Assembly (NCBI GenBank): GCA_902809825.1
Contig: LR778114.1
Location: 1,178,001-1,242,000 of the forward strand
Direction: 5' to 3'
DNA from: Candidatus Hydrogenisulfobacillus filiaventi
Lineage (GTDB): Bacteria; Bacillota; Sulfobacillia; Sulfobacillales; R501
DNA: 64,000 nucleotides
The position numbers and the translations under genes were made by a program. The notes below the pieces were generated by a model, which saw nothing but the letters and a program-made list of their open reading frames with translations, made no database searches and was not told the origin of the DNA. Positions 20,837-45,355 of this stretch are shown here, piece after piece; position 1 is the first letter of the stretch; each line of letters starts with the position of its first letter.

Positions 20837-21460
20837 ATGGCGCAATGGGAATGGCTCCGGGAGCGCCTGGAAGCCGAACTCTGGGATGATGTGGTAGTGT
20901 GGGTGGCCGGCGAGGACCCGGCGGCACCGGCCTGGCTGGAGGAGATGGCCACCCTGCATCCGGCCTTGCGCGTCATCCGCGCCGCCCGGGTGCCGGGAGC
21001 GGAGCCGCCCTGGGCCTGGTTCCCCCGGGCCCGCGTCGAATATGCCCTGGCTTATCCGGAAGAGGAGCCGCGGGTGCGGTTTGTGGGCCGCCCGCAGGGC
21101 ATGGAGCTGGACCTGCTGGTGGAGGAAATCCTGGCCTTTTCCCGGCACCGGCGGCTGTTGGACCCGGCGGCCGCGGACGCGGCCCGTGCCTGGCAGGGGC
21201 CGCACCGGCTGGCCGTGCTGACCACCCCCGACTGCCCGCAATGCAGCCGCACCGTCCGCACCGCCCATGCCCTGGCCCGGGAGGCGGCGGAGACGGTGGC
21301 CTGGGAGGTGGACCTGGATGCCCATCCCGACCTGCTCCGCCGGCTGGACATCCGGGGGGTGCCGGTGACCTTCGCCGACGACCTGCGGCGGGACGGGCCG
21401 GTGCCGGAATGGATCCTGGCCCAACTGGTGGCGGGGCTGGACCGACCGGTCCGGTCCTGA
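20837..21460 (+). CDS. Thioredoxin-fold protein disulfide oxidoreductase (CPQC)
   Basis: 207 residues with two thioredoxin-like halves. The N-terminal half lacks cysteines but keeps the RFVGRPQGMELDLLVEEI pattern that ends the first half of tandem protein disulfide oxidoreductases (PDO). The C-terminal half has TTPDCPQCSRTV (C133, C136), then the cis-proline loop RGVPVTFAD. It should exchange thiols and disulfides in the cytoplasm, since no signal peptide is present. The ATG at 20837 follows GGAAGGAGAGG. It is the cysteine paralog of the TGA-containing gene at 43279-43950, which has the same two-half plan. Confidence 0.85.
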   Translation: MAQWEWLRERLEAELWDDVVVWVAGEDPAAPAWLEEMATLHPALRVIRAARVPGAEPPWAWFPRARVEYALAYPEEEPRVRFVGRPQGMELDLLVEEILAFSRHRRLLDPAAADAARAWQGPHRLAVLTTPDCPQCSRTVRTAHALAREAAETVAWEVDLDAHPDLLRRLDIRGVPVTFADDLRRDGPVPEWILAQLVAGLDRPVRS

Positions 21461-42050: not shown

Positions 42051-42353
42051 ATGCCGGTTGAACGCCGGATTGTGCAGGCCCTGGGAGGACTGGCGGTCCT
42101 GGGGGCCGTCGTCTTCGGGGTCTGGCATGTGTGGGCGGTGACCTTCTACCTGGGCCTGTCCGGCGTCCTGTTCTGGGCCGCCAGCTGGGGATGGCGGGCG
42201 CGGTTTCAGGAGGTGCTGGCCCAGCCGCCGACCGGAGCCGAGCCCACACCGGAAGTCTACCGGGATCCGGGCCGGCAGCAGCGGGTGCGGGTCTGGCGGC
42301 TCGGCGACCGGCGGTGGTATGTGCTGGAGCCGCCGGGGGGGCAGGGCCGATGA
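42051..42353 (+). CDS. Small membrane protein, unknown function
   Basis: 100 residues. Two hydrophobic helices (about 8-28 and 32-47) are followed by a ~50-residue soluble tail with RVRVWRLGDRRWYVLEPP, likely a small beta structure in the cytoplasm. GGGAGGCGAGGTGCGGC precedes the ATG. Stop overlaps the EamA transporter start (ATGA), so the two are co-translated. Confidence 0.65.
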   Translation: MPVERRIVQALGGLAVLGAVVFGVWHVWAVTFYLGLSGVLFWAASWGWRARFQEVLAQPPTGAEPTPEVYRDPGRQQRVRVWRLGDRRWYVLEPPGGQGR

Positions 42354-43282
42354 AACGCCGGGGACCCGGGCCGGCGGTGCTGGCGCTGGTGGGGGCCAAC
42401 CTGTTGTGGGCCGGGAACTACCTGGCCGGCCGGGCCTTGCGGGACAGCATCAATCCGTACACCTTGAACGGGTTCCGCTGGGTGATGTCCGCCCTGCTGT
42501 TGTGGGGGCTCTCCCGGGCCCGGGGCATCCGGGTGCCCTTGTGGCGGCAGGCGCCCCGGTTCCTGCTCCTGGGCCTGACCGGGATGTTCCTCTTCTCCGG
42601 TCTCACGTACTGGGGTCTGGCACGGGTGGGCGCGGCGCCCGCGGGACTGCTGGCCGGTTTTACCCCGGTGGCGGTGCTGCTGATGGGGCGGCTGCTGGCC
42701 GGAGATCCCGTCCGGCCACGGCAATGGCCCTGGATCGTGCTTTCCATCGCCGGGGAAGGCGTCCTGCTGTACAGTCCTGCCGCCTTGGGCGGCATCAACC
42801 CTACCGGTGCGGCCGCCCTGGTCGCGGCGGCCCTGGCCTGGGGCGTGTATACCGCCCTGGGCCGGCGCTATCGGCATCAGCTGACCCCCTGGACCCTGAC
42901 CATCGGGGCTGCGGTATGGGGGGCGGTGCCCGCGGCCGCTGTCGGCGGCTGGGCCTGGCTGGCGGCCGGACAACCGTTGGCGCTCACGGCCGGCAGTCTG
43001 GCGGCTTTGCTCTATGTCAGCACCCTGGCTTCGGTGGTGGCGTTCCTGCTCTGGACGGCCGGCACCCACCGGCTGGGCAGCGCCGTAGCGGGACCGTTCC
43101 TCAACCTGTTGCCGGTATTGACGGTAGCCCTGGCGGTAGCGGTGTTGGGGGAAGGAGTGGAGTGGCACCAGCTGGCGGGCGGGGCCCTGGTGCTAGCAGG
43201 CGCCACCGGCACCACCCTGGCCGGGTGGCGTTCCGCGCCGGCCCTGACCGGGACTCCGGCAGAGACCCCATCTGGGCCTTAA
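42350..43282 (+). CDS. EamA-family (DMT superfamily) transporter
   Basis: 310 residues, ten predicted helices in two EamA repeats: LALVGANLLWAGNYLAGRAL with LNGFRWVMSALLLWGL, and GAAALVAAALAWGVYTALGRRY in the second half. Members move metabolites such as amino acids or nucleobases out of the cell; the substrate is not predictable. Its end overlaps the TGA-containing oxidoreductase gene by four bases on the opposite strand. Confidence 0.9.
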   Translation: MKRRGPGPAVLALVGANLLWAGNYLAGRALRDSINPYTLNGFRWVMSALLLWGLSRARGIRVPLWRQAPRFLLLGLTGMFLFSGLTYWGLARVGAAPAGLLAGFTPVAVLLMGRLLAGDPVRPRQWPWIVLSIAGEGVLLYSPAALGGINPTGAAALVAAALAWGVYTALGRRYRHQLTPWTLTIGAAVWGAVPAAAVGGWAWLAAGQPLALTAGSLAALLYVSTLASVVAFLLWTAGTHRLGSAVAGPFLNLLPVLTVALAVAVLGEGVEWHQLAGGALVLAGATGTTLAGWRSAPALTGTPAETPSGP

Positions 43283-43950
43283 GGGCGGCCCGCGGGCCCG
43301 GCCGCGGCTTCCAGCAGCCGTTCCGCCAGCACCGGGGGCGGAATGTTCCCGATGAGCCGAAGGTCCCCCGGCAGCAGCAGGGTCGGCACCGCTCGGATCC
43401 CGGCCTGCCGGGCTTCCTCCAGGAATTCCCCGGTGGTCACCACCTCGGCCGTAAATCGCGGCTGCCGGCAGGCAAAGGTCAGGACCAGGCGCACCACCTG
43501 GGGGCAGAACTGTCAGGTCGGGGAGACGTACACCCGGGCCGGGACCGGCCGGGGGAGGGCCTCCAGCAGGCCGGCGGTGACGGGATCGAGGCGCGGGGGC
43601 GGAGCGCCTGCACTCAATTCCAGCGCCCGGATCCATTCGTCCAGCTGGAAGCCGGTCGGGGAACCCCGGAAGGTAACCCGGCACGGGCCGGCGGGCCCGG
43701 CGGCCTCCAGACGGGGGGTGGGATGCGCCCCCTCCGCCCGCAACACCATCCGCAGGCGCCGGGGCGCCAAGGCTACCAGATATTGCACCAGCTCAACCGC
43801 CGCAGCGTCCGCGGGGCGCCGCACCGGGGCCACGGTCAGCGTCATGGTCACCGCTGCAGGGAGGGCTTCCAGCCGCGCCCGCAACCGTTCCTCCTGCCTG
43901 GCGGAAAGATAGACGCCCACCCCGGTTTCGCCCCCCGACCGTTCCGGCAT
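43279..43950 (-). CDS. Candidate selenoprotein: tandem thioredoxin-fold disulfide oxidoreductase with in-frame TGA
   Basis: 223 codons with one in-frame TGA at 43515-43513 (codon 146). Before it the frame reads RVYVSPT; after it, QFCPQVVRLVLTFACRQP. The TGA therefore takes the place of the first cysteine of a CxxC site (U-Q-F-C). Downstream the fold continues normally, with the cis-proline loop GIRAVPTLLL and a final helix. The N-terminal half has the RVTFRGSPTGFQLDEWIRAL segment of tandem disulfide oxidoreductases. A hairpin 16 bases after the TGA fits the bacterial SECIS pattern. The CPQC paralog at 20837 is the cysteine version. No sel genes lie in the window, so a nonsense mutation cannot be excluded. 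Confidence 0.7.
43478..43512 (-). promoter_or_regulatory. SECIS-like hairpin directly after the TGA
   Basis: After the TGA, 16 bases lead through a 5-bp stem (CCAGG, 43501-43497) to a seven-base loop (TGGTGCG), closed by CCTGG (43489-43485). A short lower stem, CAG with CTG, can also form. Bacterial SECIS elements need an apical loop 16-37 bases after the UGA, an upper stem of four or more pairs, and a G in the first two loop positions. All three are met. Confidence 0.5.
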
Positions 43951-43999
43951 ATCCCGCCGCCCGGATGGCCCCGCCCCGTATTATAGCCCCGGGACCGGC

Positions 44000-45355
44000 T
44001 TAGGGGGCAGTGACGGTGCGTTCCCGCAGGGCGGCCGGCAGGTGAAACCGCAGACTGGCGTTGAGGTCGCGGCCGGTGCCCCAGGCGTGCTCCAGGCGGA
44101 TGCCCGGGTCCAGCTGAGCCAGACGCTCCCGCAGCTCCTCGAGCACGCTTTCCCAGGCGGGGGCTGCGATGGCCTGGGGACTTAAGGTCAGGCGCACGAA
44201 GCCTTCCCGCCCTGCGTCAGCGCCCGCCGGGATGATCGACCACGCAATGCGTACACTGTCACTGCCGTGCGCCAGGGGAACGAGGGCGCGCAGGAAGTAC
44301 ATCACCGCCAGCATGTGGGCGGTCCCCAGCCGGTGCTGTCCTTCAGAGATCTCCACCTGCACGTTGCGGCCGCCGGGGATGTTGGCCAAGGTCTCCCGGA
44401 TAGCGGTTTCCACGTTGATGTTGGCGCTTTGCAGGGCGTAGGCATACCGGCGCACATCCTCGAGAAGCTTGTCCAGCACATCAATCACCCGGTCCAGCTG
44501 CCGGGCCACCCCCGGCGCCCGCCGCTCCGCCTCGCCGGCCAGGCTGTCGAGCTGCAGGTTGATGCCATACAGGACCTGCACGATGCGGTCGTGCAGGTCG
44601 AGACCGATGCGGTGGCGTTCCTCCAGCACATCCAAGCGGGCCAGCCGCTGGCGCAGCCGTTCCCGGCCCAGCAACATGGCGGCGTGGTTGGCCAGCAGGT
44701 CCAGCACCGGCGTACCGTCGTCCTCCACCATGCCGTTCTGGGGCATGACCACGATGAGGTAGCCCAGGACGGTGCCGTCGTACGTCAACGGCCGCAGCCG
44801 CACGCCTCCCGAGGGGGCCAGCCCGAACAGCCGCTGCAGGATAGCCGGGTCCGGCACGGTGGTGAACGGGCCCGCTGTCCCTTGCGCGAGACAGAGCGGC
44901 AGGTCGCCGATGGTGTCGCTGTCGAGGATGCGGCTGGCATGCCGTTCCGCCAGGTAGCCGGCCGGTCCGCCCTCCTCGTTATCGCCGGCCAGGCAGAGCA
45001 CGACCCCTTCCGCATTGGTGAGGGTCCGGGTGGCTTCCGTCAACTGCCGCAGCAGGCCGACCACATCGCCCTGGGAAATCATGGCGTAGGTGGCCTCCTG
45101 AATGGCTTCCAGAGCGTCGCGCTGCCGCCGGATGATCTGGTAGCTGCGCTCGGACTTTTCCTGTTCCCGACCCAGCCAGCGGGTCATAAACCAGGAATAG
45201 GCAATGGTGCCGCCTACCAGCACCGCGCCGAGGATGAGGTCGGCGACATCCGCCGACGATCCCTTCCGGATGAATAAATGAAACACCAGGGCTATGACCA
45301 AAAGACTCGCGGACGGCAGTACCGTGCCGAGCCAGAACAACTTGCCCCGTTTCAC
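44000..45355 (-). CDS. GAF sensor kinase-like protein with eroded ATPase domain
   Basis: 451 residues. Two N-terminal membrane helices are followed by a coiled linker (RSYQIIRRQRDALEAIQEAT), a GAF domain (about 95-230) and a HisKA_3 region with the phosphoacceptor in RIGLDLHDRIVQVLYGINLQ. The remaining ~170 residues occupy the ATPase position but show no N box, no DNGxG and no GLxxM motif. It may not autophosphorylate and could work as a partner of the intact kinase at 19087, which shares its layout. GTG start with GAGGTGCGG upstream. Confidence 0.8.
   Translation of the reverse strand: MKRGKLFWLGTVLPSASLLVIALVFHLFIRKGSSADVADLILGAVLVGGTIAYSWFMTRWLGREQEKSERSYQIIRRQRDALEAIQEATYAMISQGDVVGLLRQLTEATRTLTNAEGVVLCLAGDNEEGGPAGYLAERHASRILDSDTIGDLPLCLAQGTAGPFTTVPDPAILQRLFGLAPSGGVRLRPLTYDGTVLGYLIVVMPQNGMVEDDGTPVLDLLANHAAMLLGRERLRQRLARLDVLEERHRIGLDLHDRIVQVLYGINLQLDSLAGEAERRAPGVARQLDRVIDVLDKLLEDVRRYAYALQSANINVETAIRETLANIPGGRNVQVEISEGQHRLGTAHMLAVMYFLRALVPLAHGSDSVRIAWSIIPAGADAGREGFVRLTLSPQAIAAPAWESVLEELRERLAQLDPGIRLEHAWGTGRDLNASLRFHLPAALRERTVTAP

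Follow-up and report, generated by a model that had tools for sequence, protein, structure and literature searches.

A putative selenocysteine-containing homologue of the AhpF N-terminal domain in the acidophile Candidatus Hydrogenisulfobacillus filiaventi R50

Stand-alone homologues of the AhpF N-terminal domain are listed among the selenoprotein families of prokaryotes, under the name "Homolog of AhpF N-terminal domain (Grx-like domain protein)", and selenocysteine (Sec) is part of a UxxC motif in them. Members have been recorded in Carboxydothermus hydrogenoformans and Symbiobacterium thermophilum, ABB15282.1 being one example (PMC13188914, PMC9312934, PMC1794560 for both statements). Selenoproteins are seldom retained in aerobic bacteria, according to a 2026 review (PMC13188914). 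A Sec formate dehydrogenase (PMC4378227) and a Sec peroxiredoxin (PMC7409299) have been mentioned for Sulfobacillus; in the open-licence literature we found no further Sulfobacillus selenoproteins, and no report of a multiplication of Sec-containing AhpF-NTD-like paralogues in Sulfobacillales. Strain R50 is an acidophile grown on H2, CO2 and O2 at pH 3 and 55 °C, in a medium that contains 1 µM selenite (PMC10080006). The word stem "seleno" is absent from its genome paper (PMC10080006).

The window is the whole stretch of 64,000 nucleotides that was analysed (contig LR778114.1, positions 1,178,001 to 1,242,000), and coordinates are given within it unless marked as genomic. It belongs to a closed genome of one contig (2,570,337 bp), assembled from Nanopore reads and polished with Illumina reads (PMC10080006). 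Between 43279 and 43950 a frame runs from ATG to TAA on the minus strand, a detail that the first-pass annotation had left out, with a lone internal TGA at codon 146 of 223. Judged from sequence comparison, this frame is almost certainly a functional selenoprotein gene in which UGA is read as Sec. The gene and the features around it are the following:

43279..43950, minus strand: predicted selenoprotein gene of 223 codons, a stand-alone AhpF N-terminal-domain homologue with two thioredoxin folds and UxxC in the second fold
43513..43515, minus strand: in-frame TGA, predicted Sec146, on the basis of TGA or a Cys codon at 130/130 homologous sites and of the Sec machinery in the genome
43504..43506, minus strand: Cys149 (TGC), the predicted resolving Cys in UxxC, without variation among the aligned orthologues
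43485..43501, minus strand: predicted bSECIS hairpin CCAGGUG-GUG-CGCCUGG, lying within the coding sequence, with the GUG loop at 43492-43494
43384..43386, minus strand: cis-proline codon P189, invariant among orthologues
42131..43282, plus strand: EamA-family transporter gene, convergent, its stop codon overlapping that of the selenoprotein gene; the same convergent neighbour occurs in Sulfobacillaceae
42051..42353, plus strand: small ORF resembling a membrane protein, ahead of the EamA gene and conserved in the syntenic block
44000..45355, minus strand: histidine-kinase-like gene (HisKA_3), upstream on the same strand, 49 nt before the start codon of the selenoprotein gene
20837..21460, plus strand: Cys paralogue (TTPDCPQC), equivalent Cys codon at 21233-21235, without a SECIS-like hairpin

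The active-site sequence reads V-S-P-T-U-Q-F-C-P, in which U146 and C149 make up the UxxC motif. The TGA thus occupies the place of the first cysteine of a CxxC motif, as the first-pass annotation had proposed, and both the cis-proline that it placed in the continuing frame (pair V188-P189) and the Cys paralogue that it reported at 20837 were recovered. Besides Cys149, the product holds only Cys90 and Cys161. The GC content by codon position is unchanged across the TGA (0.79/0.59/0.84 before, 0.79/0.51/0.85 after), and the protein sequence 3' of it is conserved in the orthologue alignment. Standard annotation would probably have treated the gene as broken or truncated; read with Sec, it is rescued.

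In Pfam, the window protein matches Thioredoxin_3, and among the NCBIfam models TIGR02187 ranks first and AhpF next. The TIGR02187 score of 70.3 bits (residues 91-214) lies below the curated cut-off of 185, so by that rule the protein is not a member. With this family (PDO_seleno_TRX) it shares the Sec-first UxxC, a length of about 220 residues and two thioredoxin folds; it differs in its score and in belonging to a separate clade of Sulfobacillales sequences. AlphaFold gave a confident two-domain model (mean pLDDT 89.7), for which the best Foldseek matches in the PDB are AhpF N-terminal domains (5h29, 1zyn; TM 0.84-0.85 by target length), followed by the protein disulfide oxidoreductases (PDOs) of thermophiles. 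As in AhpF, the N-terminal fold is devoid of a redox motif and the C-terminal fold bears (U/C)xxC. In contrast to AhpF, Sec replaces Cys and the protein is unfused to a flavin/NAD(P)H domain: no flavin domain lies in the frame, and no R50 homologue found is fused to one. The tandem thioredoxin-fold architecture is common to the thermophile PDOs (1a8l, 2ayt), in which CxxC is expected in both folds, but the N-terminal half of the window protein contains no CxxC (only C90). The tandem-oxidoreductase plan suggested earlier therefore stands as far as the two folds are concerned, and the layout corresponds to the AhpF N-terminal domain, not to a two-site PDO. An AhpF-NTD fold, a stand-alone frame and UxxC place the protein in the broad family of AhpF N-terminal-domain homologues. 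Since that UxxC family is already listed in the literature, the window gene is, on its sequence, a divergent homologue in a known selenoprotein family that has been little noticed in Sulfobacillales.

Homologues were found in 46 of the 60 relatives searched. The 29 best loci outside R50, from the same order, carry TGA at the exact codon in 26 cases and Cys in three. Extended to all 130 alignable sites in 47 genomes including R50, the count is 92 TGA (spread over 43 genomes), 28 TGC, 10 TGT and no other codon; these sites are not phylogenetically independent, and the sequences that serve as Cys comparators are, on average, further removed. The alignment of homologues proposed in the first-pass annotation hence returns Cys (38) or TGA (92), and nothing else. 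Other stop codons in close relatives, which it had named as evidence against Sec, are absent, with neither TAA nor TAG at any of the 130 sites. Two genomes of one genus (G018 and G026, 96-97% complete), in which SelB and tRNA-Sec were not found, have Cys in 7/7 homologues. SelB and tRNA-Sec were also not found in one draft genome with four TGA sites (G015, 96% complete), where their absence is probably due to contig gaps.

In a tree of 33 proteins, the window gene falls in a 26-member clade (98/95 support), which is separate from the TIGR02187-like members of more canonical type and composed, in the set examined, of Sulfobacillales sequences only. Cys versions are nested in the Sec clade at least twice (L031 with L037, and L042). 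The assignment of these relatives to Sulfobacillales is our reading of the named loci and of the R50 paper (PMC10080006). Twelve loci, all of Sulfobacillus or of unclassified Bacillota MAGs, matched a DNA pattern built on the Sec site; no patterns could be drawn from the overly divergent alignment A4, and the window protein as a single query against the genome contigs found no relative.

The published bSECIS model describes an upper stem of 4-16 bp and an apical loop of 3-9 nt with a G in the first two loop positions, 16-37 nt after the UGA and with an MFE of at most -7.5 (PMC13188914). The window hairpin, which starts 11 nt past the TGA, agrees with all of these values, and so with the published rules on stem, loop distance and G that the first-pass annotation had claimed for it (7 bp, loop GUG, apical loop 18 nt past the TGA, -10.3 kcal/mol). 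This fold energy is unexceptional for a GC-rich sequence (z = 0.22 against shuffles), and single-sequence folding was rejected as SECIS evidence. The case for the hairpin is a comparative one, built on conserved pairing and compensatory changes in the aligned sequences. The outer six pairs are formed in 27/27 distinct Sec sequences (162/162 cells), and four of them show changes on both sides. The covariation amounts to 0.418 compared with 0.189 in shuffled alignments, none of 500 reaching the observed value, and with at most 0.137 in slid controls; a second, independent prediction yields the same stem.

The first five Cys homologues to be examined pair in 57% of cells, about the level of shuffles. 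Across all sites, all six pairs are formed at 83 of 92 TGA sites, the other nine missing one or two, versus 2 of 38 Cys sites. These totals count for less than the compensatory changes, because they depend on phylogeny, the Cys homologues are on average further removed, and part of the stem is dictated by the protein sequence. A covariance model run over the R50 genome retrieved a second Sec paralogue (1.5e-8) and the window site (4.9e-8), the next match standing at 0.3. As both top sites were in the training set, the point of this search is the absence of other strong matches. The hairpin thus fits the published model, has compensatory changes and decays in Cys homologues.

The Sec machinery is encoded in R50, namely SelB (627 aa, 330 bits against a cut-off of 242), tRNA-Sec (74.8 bits, anticodon UCA), SelA (571 bits) and SelD (352 bits), which has its own in-frame TGA in KSGUGCK. 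All four components listed for verification in the first-pass annotation are therefore present in the closed contig, and a complete genome lacking selB or tRNA-Sec, which it had held to be incompatible with Sec, is not what was found. The formate dehydrogenase alpha subunit (FdhA) carries the canonical Sec motif CNRTUHAP. Together with the window gene, the second paralogue and SelD, this gives at least four Sec genes. The interpretation of the TGA as Sec in the first-pass annotation is supported by this machinery, by the restriction of the site to TGA and Cys codons, and by the hairpin, with its compensatory changes and its decay in Cys homologues.

A broken gene is one rival explanation of the interrupted frame, the TGA having arisen through nonsense mutation, or through an error of sequencing, in an oxidoreductase of Cys type; Cys-type paralogues do occur in the R50 genome. 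The same codon is nevertheless TGA at 92 of 130 sites in 43 genomes and never TAA or TAG, the downstream sequence is kept as protein, and the SECIS hairpin tracks the TGA. The Illumina polishing (PMC10080006) speaks against an error in the assembly, as do the 26 of 29 best-hit relatives that share the TGA. A pseudogene is thus extremely unlikely. Hardly more credible is a Sec codon serving as a regulated stop, with a selenium-dependent product of 145 residues having a role of its own beside the full protein; we regard it as very improbable. Under low selenium a degree of termination at Sec codons is normal, which would favour such a product, but the N-terminal half by itself lacks a redox motif, nothing in the sequence hints at a separate role, and Cys versions exist that are unable to terminate there.

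The UGA might also be decoded by a tRNA other than tRNA-Sec, inserting Cys (selC*-type) or Trp, or be passed by general readthrough. R50 does have a tRNA-Cys of 94 nt that resembles tRNA-Sec, and some Desulfobacterales are known to have a tRNA-Cys of the selC* type whose anticodon is UCA (PMC7609411). In R50, however, the anticodon of this tRNA is GCA, that of the tRNA-Trp seen is CCA, and the only UCA-anticodon tRNA seen is tRNA-Sec. UGA is an ordinary stop for many genes of the lineage, the genus without SelB and tRNA-Sec (G018, G026) has no TGA sites, and FdhA and SelD contain canonical Sec sites, which makes this decoding the most improbable of the alternatives. Decoding of the UGA as Sec is the reading followed below.

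SelB bound to the hairpin would bring Sec-tRNA-Sec to the UGA, and translation would continue to a protein of 223 residues, with an N-terminal fold free of redox motifs and a C-terminal fold bearing U146-Q-F-C149. By analogy with AhpF, the protein most likely acts like a detached AhpF N-terminal domain. Sec146 would attack disulfides or sulfenyl forms of partner proteins, and Cys149 would resolve the mixed selenosulfide. Re-reduction of the Sec146/Cys149 pair would fall to a thioredoxin reductase, a flavoprotein separate from the window protein. We infer the physiological partners from gene content: the candidates are TrxB, whose gene overlaps selB, and the several Cys-type peroxiredoxins encoded in R50. 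Electrons would accordingly pass, if the analogy holds, from thioredoxin reductase to the window protein and on to a peroxiredoxin; for the part of a peroxiredoxin reductant, the chances are about even. A Sec peroxiredoxin was sought as a partner and rejected, the PF00578 matches of R50 carrying no TGA. The overlap of trxB and selB measures 4 nt (L001:721-3632); it was rejected as a conserved link, as no trxB match was found at the selB loci of 30 relatives.

Sec copies of the AhpF-NTD-like family number one to six per genome in the order, six TGA-containing paralogues being present in G033 (L040, L130, L131, L172, L181 and L215). These multiplied proteins could form a Sulfobacillales-specific subfamily that serves as a main peroxide/disulfide relay in bacteria that are aerobic, acidophilic and exposed to metals, a proposal that we make tentatively and consider somewhat doubtful. 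If true, such a relay would be at odds with the view that selenoproteins are seldom kept by aerobes. R50 itself, an oxygen-respiring acidophilic H2 oxidiser, is predicted to use Sec in at least four proteins. An acidophile order with one to six Sec copies, together with a Cys-only genus devoid of SelB and tRNA-Sec, constitutes a natural experiment on the retention and loss of Sec, and lineage-wide Sec use in aerobic acidophiles merits follow-up.

The block shared with Sulfobacillaceae, consisting of the small ORF and the convergent EamA transporter, supports orthology to their genes. Upstream, the relatives carry an XRE-type regulator (by sequence) where R50 has the histidine-kinase-like gene, indicating that regulation differs between them. 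The latter gene was rejected as a functional partner since it is not conserved in the syntenic block. A TATAAT at 43975-43990 (minus strand), about 30 nt ahead of the start codon in a genome of 70% GC, is possibly the gene's own promoter.

Elsewhere in the genome, the second Sec paralogue (L048:6130-6676; genome C1:2061079-2061660) has the active site TPTUPYCP and the same SECIS hairpin, and directly follows a double-rhodanese gene. The FdhA match at L085 (genome C1:1783580-1785442, minus strand) begins at model position 53, and a separate match to positions 1-49 of the FdhA model lies about 2.7 kb from it. The 94-nt tRNA with anticodon GCA (L008:1497-1590, minus strand; genome C1 about 364062-364155) combines U73 with a variable arm of 8 bp and with a D-arm almost identical to that of tRNA-Sec, and exceeds the Rfam tRNA-Sec cut-off (56 versus 47 bits). 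By these characters it looks like a selC*-type tRNA-Cys, a kind so far described from anaerobes (PMC7609411).
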